From the IMG/VR virus record IMGVR_UViG_3300044742_000252, positions 1 through 42,505 of that record: a stretch of DNA of 42,505 nucleotides; one strand, 5' to 3'. Both the position numbers and the translations under genes were made by a program. Below are positions 9,862-29,951 of this stretch, piece by piece (position 1 is the first letter of the stretch; every line of letters begins with the position of its first letter). The notes beneath the pieces are model-generated. The model ran no database searches, was not told where the DNA came from, and was given only the letters and a program-made list of their open reading frames with translations. This stretch comes from a virus.

Positions 9862-11511
9862 ATGCGCGCGGACGACTTGCAGTTAGGCCGAACGTGGTAC
9901 CCGGTGCCTCCGGGGCTGGCCAGATGGCCGCACCCCTCGCAATGGACCCAGGATCACTGGCGCCACTGGTGCTGTGCCGGCGGGCTGCGGCCGATGACGC
10001 CGGCCGACTTCGAGCAGTACTGGTGGGACCGCCAGCGCTGGGGCTTCGGGCTCCGCCCCACCGACGCCAAGGGCCGCCCCACGGGCGACACGCGCTGGCT
10101 CTATCACCCCGGCCCCCGCGCCATCCCCTTCCATGCCGCCGAAGAAGCGTACGTCTTGTACGGGGGCGCGCGCGGCGGGATGAAATCGCACTCCCTGCGC
10201 TGGGACTTCCATCGCCGCTGCATGCAAGTGCCCGGGTATCGCGCCATCCTGTTCCGGCGGTTGCACGAGGAACTCAAGCTCTACCACGTCGATCGCTCGC
10301 GCCGCGAAGTCAAGTGGATGACCAACGGCCACCCCGATGCGCGCGTCGTCGGCGATGACGAGTGTTTGTACCCCAATGGCTCGCTCTTGAAGTTCGGCCA
10401 CTGCAAAGACGCCGGCGACGAGGAGAAATACCTCGGCTCGGAGTGGGACGCCATCGGCTTCGACCAGATGGAGACGTTTCTGCCCTCGCAGATCGTGGAC
10501 ATCATGGGCTCCGGCCGCTCGACCACCGAAGGCATCACGTCCTTGGTGCGCGGCACCGCCAACCCCGGCGGCGTCGCCCCGCAGTGGATCATCGACCACT
10601 TCCTGGACAAGTCGCCGCCCGAGGACGACCGCCTCGCCTACGACCCGGCCGACTGGCGCTACATCCCGGCCCGCGTCTACGACAACCCCTACCTCATGGA
10701 CAGCGACGGCTCGTATAAACGCTACGAGAGCCGGCTGGCCCAGTACGGCGAGGTGCGGCGCCGCCAGATGCTCCTCGGCGACTGGGCCGCGCGCGAAGGC
10801 CAGTTTTTCCCCGAACTCCTGGAGGCGACGCATCAGGCGATCCGGCCGATTCCGAAGGGCACCCGTTTCTACGGCGGTTTAGATTTCGGGTTCAACCGCC
10901 CGGGGTGCGTGAGCATTTGGGCGGCGCTGCCAGACGGCCGGATGTACTGCCGCTGGGATATCAAATTCCGGGGCCGTCCGCTCTATGCGGCGCCGCAGGA
11001 ACGCGGCGAATCGGCCGCCTCATACCGCAGTCGGGCCGAGGGCACCGTCGCCTATCAGCTCAAGGCGCTGTGTGAACGCGAAGGGATTCAGCTCTATCAG
11101 GTCTTTTGCGACCCGGATTTGGATGCGCAAAAAACCGGCGGTGAGACGCCCGTGCAAGGCCTCCGGCGTGTGGGCATTCCGGCGGTGGCCGCGTCCAATA
11201 ACCGCTACCTCGGGTGGTTGCGGTGTCGCGCCTGGTTCGCGACCGCCCCTGACGGCGCCCCGTGGGCGCAGTTTCACCCGGACGCGGCCTACACCTGGCG
11301 TAGCCTGACCGGCATCGTCAGCGATAAAACCAATCCGGACGATTGCGACACCGACGGCGATGATCACGGAGCTGATTGCGCTAGGTACTTATTATTTGCG
11401 CGTCCGTCACCCGATCAGCGTCAAGTCGGCAGCATTAAATACGCCAAGGGAACATGGGGCGCATTGATTAAAAAGAGTCAGAGTCAGGGTGGCGCCCGGC
11501 GCATTATCTGA
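9862..11511 (+). CDS. terL: Terminase large subunit
   Basis: 549 aa, the ATP-driven DNA-packaging motor and nuclease. Walker A is G-G-A-R-G-G-M-K-S at residues 101-109. A Walker B-like 'IGFDQMETF' ends near 207, and a coupling motif 'VRGTANPGG' follows. The RNase H-fold nuclease begins at 'YGGLDFGFNRPG' with Asp341, continues at 'VFCDPDLDAQ' (Asp417/419), and ends at 'DDHGADCARYLLF' (Asp505 region). Length and motif order are normal for the family. AAGGG precedes the ATG. It heads the long rightward block and is followed by a homing-endonuclease gene. Confidence 0.95.
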   Translation: MRADDLQLGRTWYPVPPGLARWPHPSQWTQDHWRHWCCAGGLRPMTPADFEQYWWDRQRWGFGLRPTDAKGRPTGDTRWLYHPGPRAIPFHAAEEAYVLYGGARGGMKSHSLRWDFHRRCMQVPGYRAILFRRLHEELKLYHVDRSRREVKWMTNGHPDARVVGDDECLYPNGSLLKFGHCKDAGDEEKYLGSEWDAIGFDQMETFLPSQIVDIMGSGRSTTEGITSLVRGTANPGGVAPQWIIDHFLDKSPPEDDRLAYDPADWRYIPARVYDNPYLMDSDGSYKRYESRLAQYGEVRRRQMLLGDWAAREGQFFPELLEATHQAIRPIPKGTRFYGGLDFGFNRPGCVSIWAALPDGRMYCRWDIKFRGRPLYAAPQERGESAASYRSRAEGTVAYQLKALCEREGIQLYQVFCDPDLDAQKTGGETPVQGLRRVGIPAVAASNNRYLGWLRCRAWFATAPDGAPWAQFHPDAAYTWRSLTGIVSDKTNPDDCDTDGDDHGADCARYLLFARPSPDQRQVGSIKYAKGTWGALIKKSQSQGGARRII

Positions 11512-12191: not shown

Positions 12192-14294
12192 GTGCCGCTC
12201 CCTGGCGATCCGACCGCTCCAGCCGCCGCGCCGCTCGACGTCGCGCCCGTCCCCACGCCCGCCGCTCCGCCTCCCAGCCGCGGCGACGCCCGCATTCCCC
12301 TCACCGCCGAGGAGTTGAGCGCGTGGAAACTGCGCATCAGCCGCAGTCGCGCCAAACAGAAAGACTGGCACGCGCTGTGGGAGGCGAATCTCGACGCCTA
12401 TGCGCCCGACCCGAAAACGCTCGGCGCGTCCAAAGAGCGCTACGACGTCAACCCGAACGTCGACTTCCGCCAAGTCGAACAGAAGAAAGCCCTGCTGTTC
12501 TACGACCGCCCGGAAGTGCTGTTGGACCCAGAGGAGCCGTTAGCGACCGCCACCCAGGCCCAGCACGTCATCACGCTGCGCCAAGCCGTCCTCAACAAAG
12601 CGCTCGGCCCCAAACCCGAAGGCGTCGACGTCCTGCGCACCGTCCAGCGCGCGCTGCTCGACATCCTCGCGATCTCCGGCATCGGCTGGACCAAACTCGG
12701 CTGGCGCGTCGAAACCAAAATCCTCGACCCCGCCGACGACCCCGAGCTCCAAGCCCTCGGCGTCGGCGACCAGCCCATCGCGGTGCCCATCTACGAGCGC
12801 CCGTTCTGGGACTACCTGCCGTGTAAACGCGGCCTCGCCCCGCATGACGCCCTCGGCGTCGTCAGCGACGACTGGGACTGGATCGGCCAGGACTTCACGA
12901 TGCCGATCGCCGAAGCCCGCCGCACCTTCAATCTCCCGACGGATTTTGAGTCGACCAGCAAAGACGACCCGGCCGTCCTCCGCGAGCCCACCGCCTCGCG
13001 CGATCGCACCGTCGCCCAGGTCACGGGCACCGAAATCCAGTACTACCGCAGCCGCTTCGACGCCGACACGGTCCATCCCGACGTCATCTATGAACTGATC
13101 CTCATCGACGGCCACGACACACCCGTCCGGCACCGGCCGAGCCCCTATCAGACGCTCAATCCCGACGGGCGCCTGTCGGACGATAGCGTCCACGGCTACC
13201 TGATCCACCCGCTCACCATCCGCGATGCCGCCGATGGCGTCTACCCGCTGTCCGATAGCAGCGTCACGCGCGCCCTGGTCGAAGAACTCAAGGTCTATCG
13301 CGCCCAGAACCTCAAGCATCGCGACGCCTCGACGCCGACCGTGATGTTCAAGGAAGACGCCATCGATGAGGCCCAGCGCGACACGCTCAAGGCCAACGGC
13401 TACTTCAACTGGTTCCCCATCGCCCCGTCCGAATGGCCCAGCAACAGCGATCCCATCAAGGCCGCCGCGCTCCCCGCCCAGGCCCGCGACTCCTATACCG
13501 GCGCCGAAATCATCGAACGCGACATCGAGCGCAGCCACAGCATCGGCGCCAACCAGACCGGCGCCAGCCAGACCGGCCGCCGCAGCGCGACCGAAATCCA
13601 GGCGATCCAGTCCAACACCGACTCGCGCCTCGCGATGGAGCAAGCGCGGCTCGCTGATGGCTTCCTCAAGGGCGTCGCGAAGCTCGACGCCCTCATCCAG
13701 CGCCTCGGCGCCCCCGGCTACGTCCGCATCCTCGGCGACCAAGGCGCTCAGGAACTCGTCCAGGTCGACCCGAAACAGATCCCCGGCCGCATGCTCTATC
13801 GCATCCGCCCGGATAGCCAACTGCGCACCGATGCCGCCGCCGACCGCGCCCAGTTTCTCCAGCTGTACAACCTGCTCGCCAACAGCCCGTCCGTGAACCG
13901 CTTCGAACTGGAATCGCAGCTCGTGCGCAAATTCGGCCAGGACGCCTCGCGCCTGCTCGTCCCGCCGACGCCGCCCTCGCCGCCGCCGCCGAAAGTCAGC
14001 GTCAGTATCCAGATGGCCGACTTCCTGACGCCGGCCGCGATCATCGCCACGAAACTGGTCACCAATCAGCCGATCACGCCCGACGACATCGCGACGCTGC
14101 AAGCCGAAATGGCCCTCATCCCGCCGGTCGACGCGCAAGGCGATGCGCTCCCGCAAGAGGCGCCGCCAGCCGGCCAGCCCGAGCATCCCGGCCCCGTCGA
14201 ACAGGCCCAGCCGCTCGACGCCCACCAGGAACGCCGCACCGCCGGCATGGAAGGCATCGGCCCCCTCAACGATGGCGGGGGCGGGAGCCTGTAG
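12192..14294 (+). CDS. Portal protein
   Basis: 700 aa, within the range for podovirus portals. It has a Pro/Ala-rich N-terminus and a helical entry ('SAWKLRISRSRAKQKDWHAL'). The core has 'YERPFWDYLPCKRG' and 'SGIGWTKLGWRVE'. A long stem/wing region includes 'GAEIIERDIERSHSIGANQT' and 'RRSATEIQAIQSNTDSRLAM', the latter typical of portal families. The tail is Pro/Gln-rich. Its place between terminase and scaffold agrees. The start is uncertain: GTG 12192 lacks a good ribosome site, and the first 35 residues may not be translated. Confidence 0.85.
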   Translation: MPLPGDPTAPAAAPLDVAPVPTPAAPPPSRGDARIPLTAEELSAWKLRISRSRAKQKDWHALWEANLDAYAPDPKTLGASKERYDVNPNVDFRQVEQKKALLFYDRPEVLLDPEEPLATATQAQHVITLRQAVLNKALGPKPEGVDVLRTVQRALLDILAISGIGWTKLGWRVETKILDPADDPELQALGVGDQPIAVPIYERPFWDYLPCKRGLAPHDALGVVSDDWDWIGQDFTMPIAEARRTFNLPTDFESTSKDDPAVLREPTASRDRTVAQVTGTEIQYYRSRFDADTVHPDVIYELILIDGHDTPVRHRPSPYQTLNPDGRLSDDSVHGYLIHPLTIRDAADGVYPLSDSSVTRALVEELKVYRAQNLKHRDASTPTVMFKEDAIDEAQRDTLKANGYFNWFPIAPSEWPSNSDPIKAAALPAQARDSYTGAEIIERDIERSHSIGANQTGASQTGRRSATEIQAIQSNTDSRLAMEQARLADGFLKGVAKLDALIQRLGAPGYVRILGDQGAQELVQVDPKQIPGRMLYRIRPDSQLRTDAAADRAQFLQLYNLLANSPSVNRFELESQLVRKFGQDASRLLVPPTPPSPPPPKVSVSIQMADFLTPAAIIATKLVTNQPITPDDIATLQAEMALIPPVDAQGDALPQEAPPAGQPEHPGPVEQAQPLDAHQERRTAGMEGIGPLNDGGGGSL

Positions 14295-14372
14295 GTGTGG
14301 GAACTGGTCTTGGCCGTCGGGGTGGCGGCGGGTCTGTACTTGCTCATCCGCGGCGCCACGCGCGACCGCTGA
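14295..14372 (+). CDS. Possible 25-aa membrane peptide
   Basis: GTG immediately after the portal stop opens VWELVLAVGVAAGLYLLIRG..., one transmembrane span with a basic end. Its TGA overlaps the next frame. It could be a real micro-gene or a by-product of a GC-rich sequence. Confidence 0.3.
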   Translation: MWELVLAVGVAAGLYLLIRGATRDR

Positions 14373-14608
14373 TCCCCGTCGCCCTCGTCGTGCTGCTCAG
14401 CCTCGCCGTCGCCGTCGCCGCCCAGCGCGTGCTGCCCCCGTTTGAACACCCGTCCACCGGCCGGGCGCGGATGACCGATGCCGAGTGGCTCGCCGCCGTC
14501 ACCGAATGCGAAGCCCACGGCGGCGCCGCCGTCCTGCGCGCCGGCCACACCCGCGACCGGCCGATCGGCGTCGTCTGTGTCGCCCAATTCACCGGGACCG
14601 AGCGATGA
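14369..14608 (+). CDS. Small membrane-anchored protein
   Basis: About 72-79 aa. An N-terminal hydrophobic span ('PVALVVLLSLAVAVAAQRVL') precedes a soluble domain with 'DAEWLAAVTECEAHGGAAVL' and 'DRPIGVVCVAQF'. The two Cys may pair. The start is unclear: CTG 14369 overlaps the previous TGA, GTG 14390 is the first normal codon, and GTG 14297 is open but adds shadow-like sequence. Its stop overlaps the next ATG. The function is unknown. Confidence 0.5.
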   Translation: MIPVALVVLLSLAVAVAAQRVLPPFEHPSTGRARMTDAEWLAAVTECEAHGGAAVLRAGHTRDRPIGVVCVAQFTGTER

Positions 14609-16964: not shown

Positions 16965-17933
16965 ATGGCCGTACCCCAGAGCGGGCAGCGGGTCGCGACG
17001 GCGTGGGAGTCCTACGTCGGCACGACCCCCGAAGACAACATCCACGAAACCTATTTCCTGCTCGACAAGATGCAGAAGGGCGGCGGCACCAAGGGGGTCG
17101 ACGGCGGGCGCAGCGTCAACGCGATGCTCGAATACGCCCTCAATCCCAACGTCGCCTGGCAGGGCGAAACCGACACCGTCGGCACCGTCGTCCCCGACAT
17201 CATCGACGAAGCGATCTGGCAGTGGAAGATCCTCGGCGCCAGCGTCGCGCACACCGAATTCGAGAAGGCCATCAACGCGGGCGGGGGGCGGAAAACCGAC
17301 CTGCTCGCCGCCAAGATGGAGAACATGAACGGGTCGATCGACAACGCGCTCAACGCAATGCTGTTCGGCACCGCGAGCGGCAACGTCCCCGGCGGCCTCA
17401 CCGACATCGTCTCCGTCACCCCCGGCACCGGCAGCCCGGGCGGCATCAACCGCCTGACGTTCACCTTCTGGCGCAATGTCCAGGTCACGGGCACCAAGAC
17501 GACCACCGCCTACGACAACCTGCGGGCCACGATCTTCAGCGCCTACAACACGGCCTCAGCCGGCATGCTGGGCAAGCGCCCCAAGATCGCCGTCACGACA
17601 CAGACCGTGTTCCAGGGCTACCACTCGCTGCTCGTCGCCAATGAGCGCTACATCCGCGAGGGGTCGAGCGACAAGGGCATCAGCGGCTTCACGCCCGGCT
17701 CGCTCATGGCCATCGACATGGAGATGAACTACGACGCCGACTGCGGCGCCGGCCTCCTGTACCTGCTCAATTTCGAGTTCTTCAAGATCGCCTACCCGAA
17801 GGGCTTCTGGAAGAAGGGCTACCCGGCGGTCGATCCGGCCAACCAGTTCGCCGACGTGTTCAAACAGTTGACGATCTGCACGCCCTACACCAACAACGCC
17901 CGCAAGCTCGCGGTCGTGTCGGCCATCACCTAG
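16965..17933 (+). CDS. Major capsid protein (likely, HK97-fold)
   Basis: 322 aa starting MAVPQSGQRVATAWESYVG, with GAGGTGG upstream. It shows features of a capsid family common in environmental podoviruses and siphoviruses: 'SIDNALNAMLFGTASGNVPG' followed by 'GLTDIVSVTPGTGSPGGINR', 'TFTFWRNVQVTG', 'RPKIAVTTQTVFQGYHSLLV' and 'YLLNFEFFKIAYPKGFWKKG'. The position after a scaffold and before a decoration-type protein fits. The HK97 fold is inferred from this family resemblance, not shown. The start at 16950 gives five extra residues without better support. Confidence 0.85.
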   Translation: MAVPQSGQRVATAWESYVGTTPEDNIHETYFLLDKMQKGGGTKGVDGGRSVNAMLEYALNPNVAWQGETDTVGTVVPDIIDEAIWQWKILGASVAHTEFEKAINAGGGRKTDLLAAKMENMNGSIDNALNAMLFGTASGNVPGGLTDIVSVTPGTGSPGGINRLTFTFWRNVQVTGTKTTTAYDNLRATIFSAYNTASAGMLGKRPKIAVTTQTVFQGYHSLLVANERYIREGSSDKGISGFTPGSLMAIDMEMNYDADCGAGLLYLLNFEFFKIAYPKGFWKKGYPAVDPANQFADVFKQLTICTPYTNNARKLAVVSAIT

Positions 17934-17951: not shown

Positions 17952-18443
17952 ATGCCTTCACTCACCGGATGCCCCGGCGTCGTCCTCAAGGCCGGCAGCG
18001 GGACCAACGCGGCGGCGTCGATTGACAGCGCCGCCCTCCACCCGCTCGGCACGCGCAGCTACGGCACGGGCGGCGAGGAATACATCTACTTGCAGGGGAT
18101 CGGCTCGACCGTCGCCGGCAGTGTCGTCACCTATGACGACAACGGCCTGACGACGCTGGTCGTCGCCAATGCCACCGGCCCCGTCGCCGTCGCCCAGGCC
18201 GCCACCGTCGCCTCGACCTTCGGCTGGTATGCGGTGCGCTCCGGCCTCGCCGGCATGTCCGTCGCCTGCGATACCGGCATCACCGACAACGCCAAGGTCT
18301 ACATCGATGGCACCGCCGGCCGCGTCGATGACACGGTCGTGGCGGGCGACCAGATCGCCAACATGCTGTTCCGCAGCACCGATACCGGGAATCTGGTCAC
18401 GGCGCAGTTCGATTACCCGTTCGCCACCGACGGCCTCGGGTAG
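17952..18443 (+). CDS. Capsid decoration-type protein
   Basis: 163 aa, all-beta and Gly/Ala/Thr-rich: 'GCPGVVLKAGSGTNAAASID', 'EEYIYLQGIGSTVAGSVVTY', 'VAVAQAATVASTFGWYAVRS', ending 'AQFDYPFATDGLG'. The pattern 'GPVAVAQAA...GWYAVRSG' is frequent in small proteins coded just after capsid genes and thought to coat the shell. It starts 18 bases after the capsid stop, and a strong hairpin follows. Confidence 0.65.
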   Translation: MPSLTGCPGVVLKAGSGTNAAASIDSAALHPLGTRSYGTGGEEYIYLQGIGSTVAGSVVTYDDNGLTTLVVANATGPVAVAQAATVASTFGWYAVRSGLAGMSVACDTGITDNAKVYIDGTAGRVDDTVVAGDQIANMLFRSTDTGNLVTAQFDYPFATDGLG

Positions 18444-19737: not shown

Positions 19738-19944
19738 ATGGCGACGACGCGACCCGCACCGACGCCGTTGCTCCAGGACGGCCCCTTCGACGGCGAGACG
19801 AGTCTGCCCGAGGGGGCGCGCGTGGATGAGCGCAGTCTCGAATTGACCATCCCCACGGCCGGCGGCGTGGCGATCTACCAGCGCACGGGCGAGACGTCGC
19901 CCGCGTGGCGCTACGCGCGGACGGAACCGATCTACCGGCCGTAG
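19738..19944 (+). CDS. Compact DGPF...YRP domain protein, 68 aa
   Basis: 'LLQDGPFDGETSLPEGARVD', 'ELTIPTAGGVAIYQRTGE' and 'WRYARTEPIYRP' align with the core of 19277-19735: DGPF-x-G, LPEGA, IP-x4-G-x-x-IY, Y-R, EP-x-YRP. This indicates a duplication with loss or gain of the disordered flanks. The start is 2 bases after the previous stop. Confidence 0.65.
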   Translation: MATTRPAPTPLLQDGPFDGETSLPEGARVDERSLELTIPTAGGVAIYQRTGETSPAWRYARTEPIYRP

Positions 19945-19949
19945 CCACC

Positions 19950-20384
19950 ATGGCGGCGCAGTGGCGGTGTCACCGTTCGGGCGACTGTTGCAGAGCGGTC
20001 GGCGCCGTCACGATGACGCACGCCGAACGCGCCGCGATTGAAACGTACACGTCGGCCCCCCTGCCCTGGCGCGAGGGGCCGACGTCGGCGTTTACGCAAC
20101 TCGTCGGCGACCCGGCCTGTCCGCTCCTCGACGCGCACGGCGCCTGCTCGGTCTATCCCGTGCGCCCGTTCAACTGCCGGCGGTGGGGGTGCTTTCGCCC
20201 GACCACCGATGAACCCCTGGCACTCGCGGTCCAACCGGACCCGCGCGACCCCTCGACCACCATTCCGGTGCGACTCCTGACGTCGCGCCCCGTCGCCCGC
20301 CAGTGGGCGCGTTTACACCGCGCCGCGATGCCCTGGGCACTCGCGCACGGCTGGCGCCCAGACGCCGAAAGGTCCGACCCATGA
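19950..20384 (+). CDS. YkgJ-type cysteine-cluster protein
   Basis: 144 aa. An N-terminal 'CHRSGDCCRAVG' (residues 7-18), then 'CPLLDAHGACSVYPVRPFNC' and 'RRWGCF'. The C-x5-CC...C-x2-YP-x-RP-x2-C order is the YkgJ/UPF0153 zinc- or iron-chelating signature. The cellular role of this family is poorly known. In phages it appears as an accessory gene. Its stop overlaps the next ATG. Confidence 0.8.
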   Translation: MAAQWRCHRSGDCCRAVGAVTMTHAERAAIETYTSAPLPWREGPTSAFTQLVGDPACPLLDAHGACSVYPVRPFNCRRWGCFRPTTDEPLALAVQPDPRDPSTTIPVRLLTSRPVARQWARLHRAAMPWALAHGWRPDAERSDP

Positions 20385-22183
20385 GACGCGCCCTGATCGC
20401 TCTGTTGCTCGCGCTTGGCCTCGGAGCGCCCGCCGCGGCGCAGACCATTACCGCGCTCCGCGCCACCGGGGCCAGTGGCACCCTCAACGGGGTCGGCAGC
20501 GTGATCACGCTGACCAATACCGGCGGCTTGGCGTCGATGACCATTCAGACGCTCGACAGCTACTCGGGCACCTGGGAAGCGCAGTGTTCGCTCAACGGCA
20601 CGACGTTCGATGAGGACGACGAGCTGCTGCTGGCGATTCTGGGCGGGACCACCGCCGCGACCGAGGTCACGGATGCCATCGGCGTGTGGCAGGCCAACAT
20701 CAGCGGGTGTGTGTCGGTGCGCGTCATCGCCACGGGCGGCTTTGCCGCCAGCGATACCGCCGTGCTGATCCAGGCCATCACCCCCGGCGGCGGCACCGGG
20801 GGCGGCGGCGGCGGGGGCGGCGGCGCGGTCGACATCACCGCCGTGGGCGGCAACCCCGTCACGACCAACGTCCCGGTGCAGTGCTCCAACTGCTCGGGCT
20901 CGGGCGCGTCAGACGTCGAAGGCTCGACCTACACGCTCGGCACCGACGTCGTCGCGCCGATGGGCGCCTACGCCGATGAGACGACGCCCACGGCCGCGAC
21001 CGAAGGCCGCATGTCGACGCCGCGCCTGACGCTCAATCGGGCGCTCCTCACGACCGAGCGCGACACGGCCGATGCGTCGATCTTCGGCCTCGCCGCGGCC
21101 GGCGCCGACAACACCGCCAACCCCACGCTCGGCGGGCTGCGGACGTTTCAGTACGTCTACGATGGCGCGACCTGGGACCGCTGGACCGGCGCCGTCACCA
21201 ATGCCGGCACATTCGCCGTGCAGTTGACCGGCGCCACCAACAACATCAACAACATTTCCGGGACCGTCGCCCTGCCGACCGGCGCGTCGACCGCCGCGAA
21301 CCAGACGACGGCCATCACCGCGCTGCAACTGATCGACAACCTGCCGAACACCATCGGCAGCACGACCTCGGGCCAGTCGGGCGCCCTGGGGCTGGGGGCG
21401 GTGACGACCGCGGCGCCGACCTACACCACGGCGCAGTCGCACCCGCTGTCGCTCGACACGGCGGGGGCACTCCGGGTCGCCATCACGTCGGGCGCCGGCA
21501 GCGGCGGATCGAGCCTCGCCGACAACGCGGCGTTTACCCCCAACACGACGTCGTTGACGGTCATCGGCGGCGAAGTCGATGACACCTCCACCACCGCAGC
21601 CACCGAGAACAGCGGCGCCGCCGCCCGCCTCACCGTCCAGCGGGCGCTGCATGTCAATCTGCGCACCGCAGCCGGCGTCGAACTCGCCCCCGCCACCGAT
21701 GCCACCCACGACAGCGCCGCCAGTGCCACCGGCCCGCAGATCATGGGCGAAGCCACCTCCGCGCTCAGCACGGATACCGCCGTCGCCGATGGCGATGCGG
21801 TGCGCGTGAAAACGGACTTGCTCGGCCGCCAGATCACCGTCGCCGGCTGCGGCCGACAGGACCGCGTCCGCGGCGTCGTCACCATCACCGATGGATCGAG
21901 CACCTCGGCGCTCGCCGCCCAGGGCAGCGGCATCATCACCGAGATTTACGAGATCGAAATCGCCAACACCAGTGGCACCGACGTGAGCGTCGACATTCGC
22001 GACGGCACCGCGGGGTCCGTGCTGTGGACGCTGATGGCGCCCGCGACCACCGATACCGGCGGCGGCAACAACCGGACGTTTAGCGTCCCGCTCACGTTCA
22101 CGGCCAACACCGCCGTCGCCGTCGACCCGTCGGCCGCCGCCACCTCCGTGATCGTCTCGGTGCTGGGCTGCAAGGTGCTGTGA
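20381..22183 (+). CDS. Exported-type virion-block protein, 600 aa
   Basis: The start at 20381 gives a Sec signal peptide, MRRALIALLLALGLGAPAAA, then Q, and has ATGA coupling. The N-domain is beta-rich with 'MTIQTLDSYSGTWEAQCSLN'. A poly-Gly hinge follows at about 135-147. The long Thr/Ala/Gly-rich remainder contains two related units: 'DETTPTAATEGRMSTPRLTL' plus 'NRALLTT', and 'DDTSTTAATENSGAAARLTV' plus 'QRALHV'. Such units occur in phage structural proteins. A signal peptide on one is unusual. It is the first of four adjacent signal-peptide genes. Confidence 0.75.
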   Translation: MRRALIALLLALGLGAPAAAQTITALRATGASGTLNGVGSVITLTNTGGLASMTIQTLDSYSGTWEAQCSLNGTTFDEDDELLLAILGGTTAATEVTDAIGVWQANISGCVSVRVIATGGFAASDTAVLIQAITPGGGTGGGGGGGGGAVDITAVGGNPVTTNVPVQCSNCSGSGASDVEGSTYTLGTDVVAPMGAYADETTPTAATEGRMSTPRLTLNRALLTTERDTADASIFGLAAAGADNTANPTLGGLRTFQYVYDGATWDRWTGAVTNAGTFAVQLTGATNNINNISGTVALPTGASTAANQTTAITALQLIDNLPNTIGSTTSGQSGALGLGAVTTAAPTYTTAQSHPLSLDTAGALRVAITSGAGSGGSSLADNAAFTPNTTSLTVIGGEVDDTSTTAATENSGAAARLTVQRALHVNLRTAAGVELAPATDATHDSAASATGPQIMGEATSALSTDTAVADGDAVRVKTDLLGRQITVAGCGRQDRVRGVVTITDGSSTSALAAQGSGIITEIYEIEIANTSGTDVSVDIRDGTAGSVLWTLMAPATTDTGGGNNRTFSVPLTFTANTAVAVDPSAAATSVIVSVLGCKVL

Positions 22184-22932
22184 TGCGTCGCCTGATCCTC
22201 GCGCTCCTCGCGCTCCTCGCGCTGCCGGCTGTGGCGCGAGCGCAAATCACCGCGACGTTTCTGCAGACGGCGAACGATCCCACCGATGCCACGTCGTACA
22301 CCTTTGCCGCCCAAAATCTCGGCACCGCCGCCAGTGATCGGTACATCACCGTCGTCACGATCGGGCGCAAGACGGGGACGTCGAACTGTACGACGCCTTC
22401 CGCGCTGACGATCGGCGGCGTCTCGGCGTCGTACATTAATCATCGCGGGAATGCGGTGAGCAATTGTAATGTCGTCGCCATTCACAAGGCACTCGTGCCC
22501 ACGGGCACGACGGGCGATATTGTCATTACGTGGGGGTTTACGTATCTCCAAACCCACATTGCCGTCTATCGATCGACCGGCGGGCAAACGACGGCGGCGA
22601 CCGTCACTGGGAGTAGTACGGTGGGCGATCCCGCCTTGACGCACACGATCGCCGCCGACGGGTATTCCGTGGGCGGCAGCGTCACCAATACGACGGCGAC
22701 CGCCACCTGGACGGGCCTCACGGAAACGTACGATGAGCCGATGGTGTCGGGCTCGACCACGATTGCGTCGGGGGCGCTGCTCAATCCCGGCACACTCCAA
22801 ACGAGCTTGAGTGTGGTGGTGGATTGGACGGCCTCTGGGACGGAGACGATCGGCGTGTACGCGTCATGGTCGCCCGTCTCGTCGGGCACGACGCCGCCGA
22901 CCAACCTCACGCTTGGCGTCGGGCTGAACTGA
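22183..22932 (+). CDS. Exported-type beta protein, 249 aa
   Basis: Signal peptide MRRLILALLALLALPAVARA, then QITATFLQTANDPTDA. The mature part is one all-beta domain of about 225 aa ('YITVVTIGRKTG', 'NVVAIHKALVPTGTTGDIVI', 'WTGLTETYDEPM'). It is clearly paralogous to the N-terminal domain of the next gene, position by position. The start shares an A with the previous TGA (TGATG). The function is unknown; perhaps an attachment domain without an enzyme. Confidence 0.75.
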   Translation: MRRLILALLALLALPAVARAQITATFLQTANDPTDATSYTFAAQNLGTAASDRYITVVTIGRKTGTSNCTTPSALTIGGVSASYINHRGNAVSNCNVVAIHKALVPTGTTGDIVITWGFTYLQTHIAVYRSTGGQTTAATVTGSSTVGDPALTHTIAADGYSVGGSVTNTTATATWTGLTETYDEPMVSGSTTIASGALLNPGTLQTSLSVVVDWTASGTETIGVYASWSPVSSGTTPPTNLTLGVGLN

Positions 22933-25274
22933 TGTGGCGACTCGCGCTCGCCGTGCTCGTCGCGCTCGCGTGGCCGTCGCTGGCCGCCGCGCAGATCAGC
23001 GCGGCGTTTCTCCAGACGGCGGAAGATGCGACCGCGCAGACGACGTACACCTACGCCGCGCACAACCTCGGCGCCGCCGCCAGCGACCGCATGATCACCG
23101 TGGTGAGCCATGCCCGCAAGACGGGGCCGACGACCTGCACGGCGCCCACCGTCACCATCGGGGGCGTCAGTGCCACGGCCATCGTGTCGCAAGGGAACAA
23201 TGTCTCGAATTGCAACATCATGGCGATCCATAAGGCCACGGTGCCGACCGGGACCACCGGCACGATCGCGCTGACATATGGCGCGACGATGCTGCGCTCG
23301 TACATTGCGGTCTATCGGTCGACCGGGGCGCAAGCGCTGGTCGCCAGTAGCAGCGGATCGAGTACCGCCGACGATCCGACGGGGGCGCTCACCATTGGCG
23401 CCACCGGCTACGCGGTCGGTGGCGCGTTTACCACGAGCACCAGCGCCACCGCGACGTGGACCGGGCTCACCGAACAGTACGACACACTCACGTCGGGCAG
23501 CACGGTCAACGCGGTCACGGGCGGGTTTCTCGCGCCGAGCACGCTGCAAAGCGGGATCACCGTGACCGTCGATTGGAGCACGGCGGCCGAGTCGGTCGGC
23601 GTCTGGGCGGCGTGGGCGCCGATCGTCAACGCCACCAGCCCCACGCATTACGTGACGCCGACCGGCAACCCGAGCGGCAGTTGTAGCAGTGGCGACCCCT
23701 GTACGTTGACGCGGGCCTTTGCGCTGGCGGGCTCGACCACCATGCCGCCGGGCTCCTGGGTGACGATCGACAACGGGGTGTATTCGCAAGACGAGATCAC
23801 CACGACCGGGGGGGGCGTCAGTGGGTATCCGGTGCGCTTTGTCGGCCAGGGCACCGACTACAGCACCGGCACGCGGATCACGGGGACGCGGACGCAGTTG
23901 ACGGCCGTCGGGTTTACCAAGACCGCCGGCCAGACCTACGTCTACCAGCACGCGAGTCCCGGCTATACCGTCAGTCACGTCTGTCAGCGGCCGACCGCCT
24001 CGACGTGGACGCCGATCGAAGTGGACGATCGCACGCCGCCCGCCTGGAACCCGAGCAACCGCGTCTATTTCATGACCGAAACGGTCTGCTACACGCGGGA
24101 GGATTCCATCGATGAAGTGGACGAAACCCATTGCAGCTATGTCCAGTCGGGCGGCACCGTCTACGTCCACATGTGCCACGAAGGCGTCCCCGCCGATGCC
24201 GACGAGGTCTACGCGGGATCGTCGGGCTGGGGCCATCTGCTCTACACCGGCAGCGGCGACTACCTGACGCTGGAACAGGCGACGCTGGAACATACCGGCA
24301 ACGGCGACGGCCTCAACGTGCAGCCGAGCGCGGCCGGCAATCAGTTTAAACACATGAAGTTTATCCACGCGCGGGTGTGGATCGAAGGCATCAACACGAT
24401 CCTGGAAGATTCCACGCTGACGGGGTTTGCGGCGCAGGGCACCGACAATCCGCACGCCAACTGCTACAGCGACGACTACGGCGACCGCTCGTGCTGGGGC
24501 GAAAACGGCGATGGCTACCTGCTATTGATGGGCCGACAAGGCACGTCCACGACCTACAACCAGATCGCGCGGCGCCTCGTCTTGCGGAGCGGCTGGAACC
24601 TGATGCGTATGGATGGCGCGAACACGTTTGAGTACAACAGCCTGTGGGGCTGCGCCAATCACAACGCGCAGATCAGCGGGACCGGCGGGACGTTTCGCCA
24701 CAACACGATGTCGGATTGCCAGGACAGCGGGCCGTACGTCGAGGGCGAGAGTTTCAACAACGTCACCATCGAGCACAACATCATCTATAACGCCGGGCCG
24801 TGGATGTGGTGCAGCCGCGACGGCGCGTCCAATGGGAGCGTGTGCCCCACGGCCGTCACGATCCGGTACAACATCTTCGGCAGCGTCCTCTACGACACGC
24901 TGACGGCGACCGGCGCGATCCTGACGCACGATTGCAATGTGTTCATTCCGCGCGTTGCCAGCCCGTCGAGTATCGCGCGCATTACCACCGTGGATGGCGG
25001 CGGTGGCGCGGTCAGTTCCGCAACGCTGGCGGCGTGGCAGGCGGCCACCGTGTTCGATGACAACTCGGTCGAACTGCCGTACACCTACTGGCTCGATCAG
25101 ACGAACGTCTTCGCCAACTTCGCGGGGCAGCAGACCTATCCGAACGACTTCACGTTGTCGGCGGCCGGCGTCACGAATGTGACCGTGTGCGGCGTGCGGG
25201 CCGGCCCGGATACCCTCGCCGTCGAAGGCGACGACGCGCCCGTGTCGCGCCGGTTGCGCTTTCGGGTGCCATGA
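22932..25274 (+). CDS. Exported-type beta-helix protein, 780 aa
   Basis: Signal peptide MWRLALAVLVALAWPSLAAA, then Q. Residues about 21-240 repeat the domain of 22183-22932 ('QISAAFLQTAEDATAQTTYT', 'NIMAIHKATVPTGTTGTIAL'). From about 245 the pattern is that of a right-handed parallel beta-helix of the pectate-lyase/tailspike kind: 'DPCTLTRAFALAGSTTMPPG', 'LTLEQATLEHTGNGDGLNVQ', 'FEYNSLWGCANHNAQISG', 'VTIEHNIIYNAGPW'. It ends RRLRFRVP. It is likely a polysaccharide-acting or binding protein. Its active site cannot be named from sequence alone. Confidence 0.75.
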   Translation: MWRLALAVLVALAWPSLAAAQISAAFLQTAEDATAQTTYTYAAHNLGAAASDRMITVVSHARKTGPTTCTAPTVTIGGVSATAIVSQGNNVSNCNIMAIHKATVPTGTTGTIALTYGATMLRSYIAVYRSTGAQALVASSSGSSTADDPTGALTIGATGYAVGGAFTTSTSATATWTGLTEQYDTLTSGSTVNAVTGGFLAPSTLQSGITVTVDWSTAAESVGVWAAWAPIVNATSPTHYVTPTGNPSGSCSSGDPCTLTRAFALAGSTTMPPGSWVTIDNGVYSQDEITTTGGGVSGYPVRFVGQGTDYSTGTRITGTRTQLTAVGFTKTAGQTYVYQHASPGYTVSHVCQRPTASTWTPIEVDDRTPPAWNPSNRVYFMTETVCYTREDSIDEVDETHCSYVQSGGTVYVHMCHEGVPADADEVYAGSSGWGHLLYTGSGDYLTLEQATLEHTGNGDGLNVQPSAAGNQFKHMKFIHARVWIEGINTILEDSTLTGFAAQGTDNPHANCYSDDYGDRSCWGENGDGYLLLMGRQGTSTTYNQIARRLVLRSGWNLMRMDGANTFEYNSLWGCANHNAQISGTGGTFRHNTMSDCQDSGPYVEGESFNNVTIEHNIIYNAGPWMWCSRDGASNGSVCPTAVTIRYNIFGSVLYDTLTATGAILTHDCNVFIPRVASPSSIARITTVDGGGGAVSSATLAAWQAATVFDDNSVELPYTYWLDQTNVFANFAGQQTYPNDFTLSAAGVTNVTVCGVRAGPDTLAVEGDDAPVSRRLRFRVP

Positions 25275-26917
25275 TGCGCCGTCTCCTCCTCACGCTCGCG
25301 TGTGTGTGTCTGCCGCTGGCGGCGTCGGCGCAAACGCACACGCCGCCCTTCTACACGCTCGAAATCGTCAACATGGACCCGGCGAGCACCAACGGCGCGA
25401 CCGCCGACGCCCGCCGCTTCCGCGCCTATCCCGGGATTGAGTACAACATCCGCGTCGCCGCCGGCTGGGGCGTCTACCCCTACACCTATGCGTTGAGCGG
25501 CGAGCCGGCGGGCATGACCATCAACGTGAACACGGGCGAGATCACCTGGCCCAACCCGACCACGGACGACCCCAGCATTACCGTGACGGTGACGGACGCG
25601 GCCTCCGCCACCGATAGCGCGACGTGGGGGATCGACGTCACCACGACGGGCTTCGTGTTCGTGGACGCGGTCAACGGCGTCAACGCCTCAAACAACGGCT
25701 GTGCGTCCTCCTGCGGCACCGGCACGCTCGCCGCGCCGTGGCGCACCTTTCTCGACCTCGTCCTCAACGATGCCGTCGCCGACATCACCTACTTTCGCGC
25801 CGGCACCTACCAGACGACCGACGCCGCGGCGCACGCCTCCGGCCAAGGCGATGGCGGCCCCGAACAGCAGATCCAGTTTTCCAACAACTCGGGCGACGCG
25901 ACCCGGCGCGGGTCGACGCAGTGGATCGGCTACCCGGGCGAGACGGCCATCATCGACTTCGGCGGCGATCAGGTGTCGACGGTGGATGCGTGGAGCGTCC
26001 GGCTCGCCGGCACCGACGTCTACGTGGACGACCTCACCGGCATCAACGCCACCTGTCTCGGCTGGCAATTCGAGGGCGGCACGCGCGGGCCGGAATTCCG
26101 GCGGCTCATCCTGCACGACCTGGGGCCGGGCGGCAACGGCTTCAACTGCGCGTTTCTCGACACGCGCGGCGCGGCACCCAATGCGGCCTACGGGATGGTG
26201 ATTGCGGACAGCGTCATGTCCGACCTCAACATCGGGACGAATTACGACGCCGCCGTCGTGGTCAAAATCTACAGCCAAAATAAGCTCATCATTGCCAACA
26301 ACACCATGTCGGGTGGCCTCGGCATGATCCACTTGAAACAGGACGCGCGGCAGTACGACATGCAAGCCAACACCATCGCCGGGGACGTGATCGGCATTGG
26401 CGGCAACATGGACGATTGCCTGGAAGGCAACGGGTGCGAGGGCGCGTTGGAGACGACCTATGGGCAGATGGTCTTCAACAACATCAGCGTGCCGACGACG
26501 TCCAGCTCGCTCGCGGGCATCGACCTCAACCAAGCCGGCGAGTCGACGCGCACGCATGTGTTCCGCAACACCGTGCGCGGCTATGTCCGCTTCCGCTCGA
26601 CCGAGGCGTCCTCGACGGACGGCCCGTTCTACATCACGCGGAACGTCCTCATCGGCCCCACCGGCAACTGTGGCGGGTCGCACACGAAGTTCACCTGTGA
26701 CAGCGTCACCGACATCAGCCGGTTCATTACCTCCAACAACCTGGAGGGCGTCACCGCGGACGGCATCGTGGACGCCAACGGCAATCTGCAAGGCAGCTAC
26801 TTGACGGACCACGGCCCCGACAGTGCGCTGCCCAAGGGCCACATGCTCGGCGACGCCGAAGAACCGCCGCCGTCGACCGCCACCGCCACGCGCCTCCGCT
26901 TCCGGGTGCCCGAATGA
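25271..26917 (+). CDS. Exported-type Ig-plus-beta-helix protein, 548 aa
   Basis: ATGA-coupled. Signal peptide MMRRLLLTLACVCLPLAASA, then Q. Residues about 45-115 look like a bacterial Ig (He_PIG) domain: 'YTYALSGEPAGMTINVNTGE', 'SITVTVTDAASATDSATW'. A beta-helix follows with 'VFVDAVNGVNASNNGCASSC', 'LAAPWRTFLDLVL', 'DAAVVVKIYSQNKLIIANNT' and 'HVFRNTVRGYVRFRSTEAS'. It ends TRLRFRVPE, nearly the same tail as the previous gene. It is probably a second depolymerase or adhesin-like protein. Confidence 0.75.
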   Translation: MMRRLLLTLACVCLPLAASAQTHTPPFYTLEIVNMDPASTNGATADARRFRAYPGIEYNIRVAAGWGVYPYTYALSGEPAGMTINVNTGEITWPNPTTDDPSITVTVTDAASATDSATWGIDVTTTGFVFVDAVNGVNASNNGCASSCGTGTLAAPWRTFLDLVLNDAVADITYFRAGTYQTTDAAAHASGQGDGGPEQQIQFSNNSGDATRRGSTQWIGYPGETAIIDFGGDQVSTVDAWSVRLAGTDVYVDDLTGINATCLGWQFEGGTRGPEFRRLILHDLGPGGNGFNCAFLDTRGAAPNAAYGMVIADSVMSDLNIGTNYDAAVVVKIYSQNKLIIANNTMSGGLGMIHLKQDARQYDMQANTIAGDVIGIGGNMDDCLEGNGCEGALETTYGQMVFNNISVPTTSSSLAGIDLNQAGESTRTHVFRNTVRGYVRFRSTEASSTDGPFYITRNVLIGPTGNCGGSHTKFTCDSVTDISRFITSNNLEGVTADGIVDANGNLQGSYLTDHGPDSALPKGHMLGDAEEPPPSTATATRLRFRVPE

Positions 26918-27900
26918 CCCTCGCTGACATTCGTCTCAACCTGTACCGTCGCCTCAACTTCAGCGACACGCCCGACGGCGCCGTCACCACGCGCCTGACG
27001 ATGTTCGTCAATCAGCGGTACCGCACGCTCTTGACGACCCCCGCGCTGCGGCGGCTGCGCGAAGGCGTGGGCAGTGCGACGTCGGTCGCCGGCCAGCCGG
27101 AGTACGGGATGCACGGCGGCATGGGCCGCATCCTGGCGGTGCGCGACCGCACCGACGACCGGCGCCTCGCGCCGATGGCCTTCGACACCTATCGCTCGAC
27201 GCACCCCGACACCACGCAGCAGTCGACGCCGACGCACTACGTGCCCATCGGCTTGCGCGCCGTCTGGCGCCGTCCCGCCGGCAGCGCGATCTGGATCGTG
27301 TCCGGCAATGCGCTGGACACGACGCAGATCGCCACGCTGCACCTGGGCTATAACTCGCCGGGGCTGGCGACGCTCACCGCCGGGCTCGTGCAAACGGTCA
27401 CGGCCACGCTCAACGGCACGACGCGCGTCGCGGTGGCGGCCGGCAACCTCATCGATGACGTGTTCACCTGGTCGCTGTCGGCGGTGAGCAATGGCCAGGT
27501 CAGTCTCTACGATGCCGCGACTGGCGGGCATGAACTGGGCTCCATCAGCAGCGGCTTCCGGTCGGCGCGCTTCTACGTGTTTGCCCTGGTGCCGACGCCG
27601 AGCGCGGCGCGCGTCTACGACATCGATTACGAGCACGCGCTGGTCGATCTGTCGAACACCTGGGATGAGCCGCTCATCCCCGATGACTTTCAAGACTTGC
27701 TCGTGCTCGGCGCCCTCGCCGATGAATTTATGCACAGGGACGACAACCGCTATAGCGCGGCGGTCATGGAGTACCGCGCCCGCCTGAGCGATCTGAAATC
27801 CTGGCTCTACGGCCACCGCGCCGCCACCCAGAAAGGGCCGCGCGCCGAACTCGCGCCGCTCGGCAGTTGGTTCCCGCACCAAGGCCACTACCCCGGCTAA
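26914..27900 (+). CDS. Head-tail adaptor-like protein
   Basis: 328 aa, ATGA-coupled. The N-terminus 'TLADIRLNLYRRLNFSDTPD' and 'LTMFVNQRYRTLLTTPALRR', and the C-terminus 'WDEPLIPDDFQDLLVLGALA' with 'HRDDNRYSAAVMEYRARLSD', match the general pattern of phage adaptor/connector proteins. Those begin with helices, have a beta insert, and end in 'LP-x-DF-x-x-LL-x-x-GA' plus a helix. It would sit under the portal and hold the tail. The position before the nozzle gene agrees. Confidence 0.65.
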   Translation: MTLADIRLNLYRRLNFSDTPDGAVTTRLTMFVNQRYRTLLTTPALRRLREGVGSATSVAGQPEYGMHGGMGRILAVRDRTDDRRLAPMAFDTYRSTHPDTTQQSTPTHYVPIGLRAVWRRPAGSAIWIVSGNALDTTQIATLHLGYNSPGLATLTAGLVQTVTATLNGTTRVAVAAGNLIDDVFTWSLSAVSNGQVSLYDAATGGHELGSISSGFRSARFYVFALVPTPSAARVYDIDYEHALVDLSNTWDEPLIPDDFQDLLVLGALADEFMHRDDNRYSAAVMEYRARLSDLKSWLYGHRAATQKGPRAELAPLGSWFPHQGHYPG

Positions 27901-29951
27901 TGGCGACACGCGACGTCCCGATCGTGCTGGCGGATTTAAGTGGCGGCCAGAACTCTGCCGACCCGCCGCTGGCGCTCGGCCCGACGCAGGCGATCGCGGT
28001 GGTCAATGTCGAGTGGCACCGCAGCAAGTTCGGGCGCAAGCGGCGCGGGTCGCGGCTGATCGAACGCGAAAGCGGCATGTCGGCGCTGCCGACCGATACG
28101 ACCTTCGTCACGATGGCCGGCGTCCAGCGCCCCACCAATGGGCTGACGCCCAACCCGGTCGGGCTGATCGTGGAAACGTTTGACTTCCGGTGGGTGTCGT
28201 GGGGCTATGACACCGGGTATGACTGGGTGCTCGGCAACGTGTCGGATACGCCCCTGACGCATGCGTGCGTGGTCTACTTCGCCGGCCGCTGGTTCGCCGC
28301 GTTTAAATCGGCTGCCGATCGGTTGCACACCATCGGCACGGGCGTCTTCGGGTTCAACGCGACCGGCTACCGCGTCGGCATCGGCCCGCCGCTCGCCGCG
28401 CCGGTCATCAGCGAGGCGGCCGGCAGCGTCACCGATCTACGCAAGTACCGGCATTGCTTCTGTTCGATGAGCGGCACCGTGATGCTGATGCGCTCCGAGC
28501 CCGGGCCGGAGACGCTCGCGCATACCCTCACCGCCGAACAGGCCAGCGCCGCCGCGCCGGGCGCCGCGCCGGCCGGCGAGAACTACAACGCCTGGGAACT
28601 ACAGGTCGCCAGCGACGACGACACCTACGCGACATGGTGGGTCGTGGGTCAGGCGCTCACGTCCGTGGCGATTGTCGACAACAACACGTCGCTGCTCGTC
28701 CTCGAGCCGGCGCCCGAACTTGGCCTCCACGAACCGCCGCACAGCGCCAAGTACCTGGGCGTCGATGACAACCGGATGCTGATGGCCGGCGCCTACGAAC
28801 AGTCGACCGATCCGATTCAGCAGTCGCGGGTGTGGTTTACCCCCGTCGAAGGCGACCTCGGCATCGGCGACGGTGAGCGCGTCCCCGATACCGTCACCGG
28901 CCAACGCAACTGGGTCGACGTCGATGCCGGCGACCAGGGCGGCGAGATTACCGGCTTCGGGCCGGCGACGCTCGGCGACATTCTGGTGTTCAAACGGGCG
29001 CAGTTGTGGCGCCTCGTGCGCACCGGCAATGTCGACGCGCCCTACATCCCGCGCGCCATCGACAAGAGCATCGGCACCTTCGGCTATCGCACCATCAGCC
29101 CGGGGCAGGATGCGGCGGGCGGCCCGTGCGTCTACTTCGCGTCGGCGCGGGGGCCGATGCGCGTCGGCCATGACAGCGTGCAGTACCTCGGCGCCGCGAT
29201 CGAAGACGTGTGGCAGACGGTCAATCAGTACGCCAACGTCCACACCTCGCAGCACGGCACCTACTACCCGAACCGGGGCCAGTACTGGCTCTGGGTGAGC
29301 GTCGGCACGTCGACGGTCCCGAGCGTGCTCCTCGTCTACACGGTGGCGACCAACGGCTGGGCCGTGTATACGGGGCCGCTCGCCACCGCCCAGGCGTCCG
29401 CGCTCTGGCCGCGCTTCGTGCAAGAGCCCAACAAGGGCGTGCCGATCGGCCTCGGCCAACCCCATCCGTCAGAAAAGGCCGAGTGGGTGCCCTACTGCGC
29501 GCCGACGGCGTTCGGCCAGATCGCCGAGTGCGACGCCATCAACCCGCAGACGGGCGTCGCGCTCGCCACCGATCTGGAACTCTACAGCGGGGCCGGCACC
29601 GTCTGGACGCCGGGCACCAGCTATCAGGGCTATCTGACGACGCGCCCGCTGCCGCAGAAAGAACTCGACTCGACGCTGACCGTCCAGGGCGCCCATGTCA
29701 TTGCCAGTGCGCAAGCCGGCGTCGTGCTCACGCTCGGTATCGTCCGCGACTATGGCGCAGAGACGCGCACCTTTACGTGCGCCGCGCTCACCGCCGCCGG
29801 CACCGAGACGATCGTCATCCGCCGCTTTGACGCCGCCGAAACCGCCAATGCCCGGGCCTTGCACCTGACCATTGGCGATGGCGCCGCCGCCGCGACGCAG
29901 TGGGCGCTCCATGCGTTGCAGATGCGCGTGATGGAGGAATTCGGGCGATGA
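27900..29951 (+). CDS. Tail nozzle-like protein (T7 gp12-type)
   Basis: 683 aa from ATG 27900, overlapping the previous TAA. 'VLADLSGGQNSADPPLALGP', then 'VNVEWHRSKFGRKRRGSRLI', is the typical opening of nozzle/tail-tube-B proteins (GG near the start, then KR-x-G). Middle blades carry 'YFAGRWFAAFKSAADRL', 'NTSLLVLEPAPELGLHEPPH' and 'ILVFKRAQLWRLVRTGN', as in a beta-propeller. The size is close to T7 gp12 (about 790 aa). It supports a short non-contractile tail. Confidence 0.7.
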   Translation: MATRDVPIVLADLSGGQNSADPPLALGPTQAIAVVNVEWHRSKFGRKRRGSRLIERESGMSALPTDTTFVTMAGVQRPTNGLTPNPVGLIVETFDFRWVSWGYDTGYDWVLGNVSDTPLTHACVVYFAGRWFAAFKSAADRLHTIGTGVFGFNATGYRVGIGPPLAAPVISEAAGSVTDLRKYRHCFCSMSGTVMLMRSEPGPETLAHTLTAEQASAAAPGAAPAGENYNAWELQVASDDDTYATWWVVGQALTSVAIVDNNTSLLVLEPAPELGLHEPPHSAKYLGVDDNRMLMAGAYEQSTDPIQQSRVWFTPVEGDLGIGDGERVPDTVTGQRNWVDVDAGDQGGEITGFGPATLGDILVFKRAQLWRLVRTGNVDAPYIPRAIDKSIGTFGYRTISPGQDAAGGPCVYFASARGPMRVGHDSVQYLGAAIEDVWQTVNQYANVHTSQHGTYYPNRGQYWLWVSVGTSTVPSVLLVYTVATNGWAVYTGPLATAQASALWPRFVQEPNKGVPIGLGQPHPSEKAEWVPYCAPTAFGQIAECDAINPQTGVALATDLELYSGAGTVWTPGTSYQGYLTTRPLPQKELDSTLTVQGAHVIASAQAGVVLTLGIVRDYGAETRTFTCAALTAAGTETIVIRRFDAAETANARALHLTIGDGAAAATQWALHALQMRVMEEFGR

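Follow-up and report, generated by a model that had tools for sequence, protein, structure and literature searches.

Sec signal peptides on candidate tail-fibre proteins encoded in the virion operon of an uncultured tailed phage

Standard accounts place the assembly of tailed phages entirely within the cytoplasm. A group of virion-operon genes whose products begin with Sec signal peptides therefore raises the question of what these proteins do outside the cytoplasm, and of whether they belong to the particle. The question is posed by a 42.5-kb virus contig (IMG/VR record IMGVR_UViG_3300044742_000252, positions 1 to 42,505, hereafter the window), in which four consecutive genes, g1 to g4 (20381-26917, plus strand), lie downstream of the head decoration region and upstream of the head-tail adaptor, in one operon with the capsid and adaptor genes. 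A first inspection of the letters alone (the sequence-only reading) had pointed to four adjacent Sec signals within a block of virion genes, and the anatomy of the signals, their coupled starts and the operon context bear this out.

Direct re-reading of the four N-termini gave the arrangement originally described: in all of them a basic n-region and a hydrophobic core are followed by A-x-A at positions -3/-1 and by Q at +1. The signal peptide of g1 (20381-20440, start at 20381) reads MRRALIALLLALGLGAPAAA and is cut at AAA/Q, the slash marking the predicted cut, so that the mature protein begins with QTITAL. Those of g2 (22183-22242; start at 22183, a GTG at 22180 being possible), g3 (22932-22991; start at 22932) and g4 (25271-25330; start at 25271) read MRRLILALLALLALPAVARA, MWRLALAVLVALAWPSLAAA and MMRRLLLTLACVCLPLAASA, with cuts at ARA/Q, AAA/Q and ASA/Q and mature starts QITATF, QISAAF and QTHTPP. 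The best 15-residue Kyte-Doolittle values of the cores are 2.2-2.9. None of the four has Cys at +1, i.e. there is no lipobox, and the proteins are therefore not lipoproteins. No second hydrophobic helix was found in the mature parts of g1-g4 (best 19-residue mean 0.96-1.60), which makes the idea that they are envelope proteins, raised in the sequence-only reading, unlikely. The start codons overlap the upstream stops by 1-4 nucleotides (nt), in the forms ATGA, GTGATG, TGATG and ATGATG, and a start past the hydrophobic stretch, the circumstance in which the signals would be spurious, would thus have to be uncoupled. The next in-frame start codons are codon 9 or 41 in g1, codon 17 in g2 (the sole further start within its first 80 codons), codon 8 or 54 in g3 and codon 11 or 34 in g4. 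By their anatomy and coupled starts, the signal peptides of g1-g4 are real and of the textbook Sec/signal peptidase I type. Gln at +1 is common, being present in all four window proteins and at many signal-peptide loci, and would give an N-terminal pyroglutamate.

Signal peptides were called throughout by a home-made rule, not by SignalP. Applied to 41 coding sequences (CDS) of E. coli K-12 as a control, the rule flagged tolB, cpoB, ybgS and modA, all presumably Sec substrates, the lipoproteins pal and ybhC and, wrongly, ybhI. In the window it flags, among 47 open reading frame (ORF) calls, g1-g4 and a single weak ORF whose start lies far downstream. In five related phages, for which 192 of 330 annotated CDS were scored (short CDS and part of the early region of Myxococcus phage Mx8 were omitted), 4 of the 192 were flagged, and none of these lies in the virion operon, in agreement with the earlier remark that signal peptides are unexpected in such a block; the corresponding figure for another four relatives was 1 of 79 CDS. 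At a background rate of about 2%, four adjacent flagged genes are not due to chance.

Runs of signal-peptide genes are not confined to the window contig. Since four-way and seven-way alignments of the repeat contained in g1 were too diverse, a two-sequence alignment (A3) was used to search IMG/VR, and 12 loci were detected. The g1 homologue carries a signal peptide at loci L010, L011, L020 and L021 and probably also at L012 and L013, and is without one, as far as the upstream sequence reaches, at L014-L019; a g1-related protein of a Manatee Spring podovirus (L008) has a signal peptide as well. The same kind of block, which it had been suggested to seek in relatives, was found in podovirus contigs of IMG/VR, in a contig of a Nitrospiraceae metagenome-assembled genome and in a Nitrospirota prophage: runs of signal-peptide genes within virion operons are present at L010, L020/G003, L021, L222 and L240 and in the prophage. 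At L020/G003, eight signal-peptide genes lie between the portal gene and those for scaffold and capsid, these being named by size and position. In the 50-kb Nitrospiraceae contig (L222, the only locus derived from the scan of genome contigs), capsid, adaptor and hub genes are followed by a tail-collar fibre and a g1 homologue, both with signal peptides. L240 shows capsid, adaptor, hub, a Collar fibre with a signal peptide and three further signal-peptide genes, one of them encoding a beta-helix protein like g3; the N-terminus of this fibre had no match in phage records. A search across the Nitrospirota phylum, in which 2 of 198 genomes matched, led to the prophage, located on a 402-kb contig, where a similar run follows the major tail and tape-measure genes.

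Two single genes were recorded alongside these runs. At L237 a signal-peptide gene (L237:422-1093) lies just upstream of the adaptor, in the slot occupied by g1-g4 in the window, and the fibre following the hub has a signal peptide of its own. Near the lysis end of L021, a signal-peptide protein (L021:13324-14139) has the mature start ADMPVK, which we take to resemble that of alphaproteobacterial Omp25/31 outer-membrane proteins.

The comparison between fibres with and without a signal is provided by the collar fibre family. The motif AELDxIxAGFxKLP comes from the N-terminus of the fibre at L222, and a search for it at the DNA level identified 45 viral-contig loci besides L222; 16 members of the family carry a signal peptide and 30 do not. 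The signal-free fibres start with M/SNNFYTHGSFP and the signal-bearing ones read PAWA/SNDFYTHGSFP at the same place. The predicted cut precedes the motif by 21-24 residues in 14 of the 16 and by 27 and 28 in two, where the rule picked an earlier site; in the signal-free fibres the distance from the residue after Met to the motif is 23 residues in 25 of 30 and 24 in the other 5. In 14 of 16 cases, therefore, the predicted cut coincides with the post-Met start of the signal-free members, or is at most 2 residues off. With a hidden Markov model (HMM) of the hub, the fibre was seen to begin no more than 3 nt from the hub end at 14 of the 16 signal-bearing loci and no more than 11 nt from it at 26 of the 30 signal-free ones; three loci had no hub match. 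The Pfam Collar domain (PF07484) was found in both signal-peptide fibres tested (L222, 92 bits; L240, 73 bits). Further strong signal-peptide ORFs occur near the fibre at 7 of 16 signal-bearing loci (13 of 124 ORFs; L237 and L275 are near copies) versus none of 30 signal-free loci (0 of 240 ORFs; Fisher p = 2e-4). On a tree built on the short N-terminal segment, from which 1 of 46 rows was omitted as too short, the signal trait changes about five times, although the starred branches force only one change.

Passage through the oxidising periplasm would lead one to expect that cysteines are tolerated or used, and the cysteine content was compared accordingly. In the g1 family it is 0.86-1.87 per 100 residues in eight members with a signal versus 0-0.22 in six without (p = 0.0024); left out of this test are L012 and L013, which look signal-like but have an unresolved or truncated start, L016, which is open at its upstream end, and L019, which duplicates the match of L017. 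Among the matches listed for a pectate-lyase-like motif, a signal peptide accompanies YGAxCDGxTDD in 40 of 71 cases, a set that may include some host genes, versus YGAxGDGxTDD in 16 of 118 (p = 8.6e-10), matches with an ORF running off the locus (5 of 76 and 3 of 121) being omitted. A second Cys lies within 40 residues in 40 of 42 signal-peptide YGAxCDG matches, off-locus ORFs included. Within the window, the cysteine content is higher in g1-g4 than in the other thirteen virion genes given (p = 0.008).

The mature proteins are modular. In g1 (600 aa, 20381-22183), the signal peptide of residues 1-20 precedes a region of 'DNAAFTxxT' repeats of a phage type and a C-terminal domain common to other phage proteins. 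In g2 (249 aa, 22183-22932), the signal peptide (residues 1-20) is followed by one domain and by the C-terminal end LTLGVGLN. This domain and the N-terminal one of g3 (780 aa, 22932-25274; 16 Cys) are 58% identical; g3 continues with a right-handed beta-helix (PF13229, 28.9 bits) and ends in RLRFRVP; the C-termini of g2 and g3 differ. Spikes attached together on one phage often share an N-terminal domain and have different C-termini. In g4 (548 aa, 25271-26917), an immunoglobulin (Ig)-like He_PIG domain (PF05345, 36.4 bits) follows the signal peptide, with a long body, beta-rich in a low-confidence model, and the C-terminal end RLRFRVPE. Beta-helix and Ig are the only domains recognised in g3 and g4. 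Predicted models (mean predicted local distance difference test score 48 for the g2 domain, 38 for g4) did not have the quality needed for a fold search. No signal-free twin of g2-g4 was found for a comparison of the N-termini, and no match to the g2/g3 alignment pattern was confirmed by tblastn.

Some C-terminal ends recur. The otherwise unrelated g3 and g4 both end in the heptapeptide RLRFRVP(E) (window 25251-25271 and 26894-26914). Tails of the LGVG/MGVG type, possibly attachment tags, are found on small beta-type proteins of virion blocks, with and without signal peptides: at the end of g2 and at L008:14749-15540, L009:12320-13579, L012:9363-10124, L014:6014-7297, L015:6454-7152 and L228:10741-11520. 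The possibility that the C-terminal tails (RLRFRVP in g3 and g4, the LGVG type in g2 and others) are sorting tags was examined on the LGVG type: a loose motif of this kind occurs in 9 of 2103 ORFs and, since only 1 of the 9 is flagged for a signal peptide, it is not associated with the signal.

Taken as a whole, the sequence data favour the view, to which we assign a probability of about 0.6, that g1-g4 are Sec-exported fibres and spikes, serving a podovirus-type particle as appendages for receptor binding or decoration, and that they would mature in the periplasm and dock around lysis. Export, periplasmic folding and presence in the virion are all steps that we infer. The four genes would be expressed together with the rest of the virion genes as a single operon; their products would leave through SecYEG, be processed at A/Q by signal peptidase I and fold in the periplasm, partly with disulfides. 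Capsid and tail would be assembled in the cytoplasm, and docking of the fibres would most likely take place once lysis disrupts the inner membrane, or shortly after release. The resemblance to the tail fibres and tailspikes of Caudoviricetes, such as the Collar fibres with the N-terminus SNDFYTHGSFP...MRAELDxIxAGFxKLP, lies in the slot next to adaptor or hub, in beta-rich modular bodies, in the beta-helix, Ig and Collar domains and in an N-terminal segment common to relatives; the difference is that the proteins considered here have a Sec signal fused at the native N-terminus and, in the g1 family, more cysteine.

Several results weigh against this interpretation. None of g1-g4 matches Collar or any other tail-fibre family in PHROGs and Pfam. 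The hub HMM of the relatives has no match to the hub of the window, which is too diverged, and the window is consequently tied to the collar group by the g1 family and gene order alone. The cultured hub-fibre relatives, Vibrio phages 1.232.O and 431E45.1, have in the fibre slot a protein without a signal peptide. Cysteine content does not differ between collar fibres with and without a signal (0.26 versus 0.15 per 100 residues, p = 0.15). Finally, the route by which periplasmic fibres would reach cytoplasmic particles is a proposal only.

The principal alternative is that the proteins are exported but do not dock: g1-g4 would be secreted depolymerases, adhesins or decoys, which clear polymers from surfaces, mask receptors once infection has occurred or aid released phage and never become parts of the particle. 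The signals are real, beta-helix and Ig domains are frequent in secreted enzymes and adhesins, and an exported fibre is kept apart from the assembling tail until lysis, all of which this explanation accommodates. It has to face, however, that signal-bearing and signal-free relatives have the same N-terminal fibre segment and occupy the same slot beside the hub, those tested also having the Collar domain, and that at L242, L247, L257, L268 and L277 no signal-free copy of the motif is present within the available locus DNA, so that the particle would be without its usual fibre. The shared slot and the near-identical N-terminus after the predicted cut speak for virion fibres with a periplasmic route rather than for unrelated secreted enzymes, and we regard secretion alone as rather unlikely, though it deserves serious attention. 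The sequence-only reading had leaned towards it: its suggestion that the proteins are secreted agrees with the likely export, whereas its corollary that they are not particle parts finds no support, given that the same kind of signal is borne by Collar fibres in the hub-adjacent slot of relatives.

Two other explanations were judged still less probable. Signal peptides direct proteins to the inner membrane, and they could act as tethers, the proteins remaining at or spanning that membrane and the particles being finished there, as happens in filamentous phages, whose virion coat proteins have signal peptides. Those coat proteins, however, span the membrane and belong to extruded single-stranded DNA particles, while the present ones would be soluble fibres of tailed double-stranded DNA phages; the good A-x-A/Q cleavage sites, the lack of another membrane span in g1-g4 and the tailed-phage type of the operons (capsid, adaptor and hub genes) make a tether improbable. 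Least credible of all is that the hydrophobic starts are incidental, because translation begins downstream or because folding outpaces export and the proteins remain in the cytoplasm. Some downstream in-frame start codons do exist, and the calling rule can err, as with ybhI, but all four starts are coupled, g2 offers codon 17 alone, the signal is gained or lost precisely in the collar family (about five changes on the short-domain tree), and it goes together with cysteine and with other signal-peptide genes.

The neighbouring genes complete the picture of the operon. From the terminase past the adaptor all virion genes lie on a single strand (plus), with overlaps of 1-4 nt around the g1-g4 block. 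Family assignments, based on PHROGs and Pfam profile searches, identify the terminase large subunit (9862-11511, phrog_979), a major capsid protein of Mx8 type (16965-17933, phrog_9953, 106 bits), a head decoration-type virion protein (17952-18443, phrog_29386) and the head-tail adaptor (26914-27900; SU10_adaptor PF24175, 34.2 bits; phrog_10775), which overlaps g4 by ATGA. The putative portal (12192-14294) is named by position, size and the gene order of Mx8, and the putative tail hub/stabilisation protein (27900-29951) by position only, neither having a family match. Directly before g1, the ORF at 19905-20384 encodes a putative metal-binding CxxCxxCC protein (PF03692) with 7 Cys, and a short ORF after the portal (14297-14608) has a hydrophobic N-terminal stretch ending in AVAAQ, not flagged by the rule. 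Single-protein pattern searches revealed no true relatives of g3, capsid or hub among viral contigs; the sole match to the capsid pattern, L006, was rejected as a helicase-like ORF. g3, g4, portal and adaptor had no match among 50,697 phage records. A related capsid protein occurs in few annotated phages; two of them, Mx8 and Bradyrhizobium phage ppBjS10J-1, share the order terminase-portal-scaffold-capsid-adaptor-hub, but their virion operons are without signal-peptide genes.

Among known phage proteins, the nearest Sec cargos are lysis proteins. Signal-peptide and signal-arrest-release endolysins, Lys44 of fOg44 and RI of T4 show, in passages of PMC6116005, that phage cargo passes through the host Sec system during infection; these are lysis enzymes or regulators, whereas g1-g4 lie in the virion block and gave no match to a peptidoglycan hydrolase domain in PHROGs and Pfam. 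For tail-fibre-like proteins displayed on a surface, the closest known case is that of the MAT fibres of Bdellovibrio bacteriovorus, which, according to passages of PMC10769870, resemble phage tail fibres and are located on the cell surface; they are bacterial genes for predation, and g1-g4 lie in a viral contig beside capsid and adaptor genes. In an excerpt of PMC6199706 the absence of signal peptides is taken as support for the phage origin of a protein, and passages of PMC5723332 give counts of 2 and 1 for the signal peptides of two Bacteroides phages, without naming the proteins. Full-text literature searches retrieved no report of Sec signal peptides on the tail fibres of tailed phages: tail fibres are known, and it is their proposed routing through Sec that is new.

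More broadly, and tentatively, at somewhat short of even odds, a set of uncultured tailed phages may finish its particles outside the cytoplasm, with Sec-secreted, periplasm-oxidised fibres docking at or after lysis, a route that would be gained or lost through a signal peptide placed exactly at the first residue of the fibre. That Sec signals are fused to tail fibres recurrently and with such precision would imply a second, extracytoplasmic route of maturation, which would explain disulfide-rich spikes. Exported fibres could also act on the host surface before lysis, blocking superinfection or cleaving the matrix, and filters based on signal peptides will discard real phage fibres. The pairs of fibres with and without a signal constitute a natural experiment that makes the question testable, and docking after export, if proven, would change the description of tailed-phage assembly.

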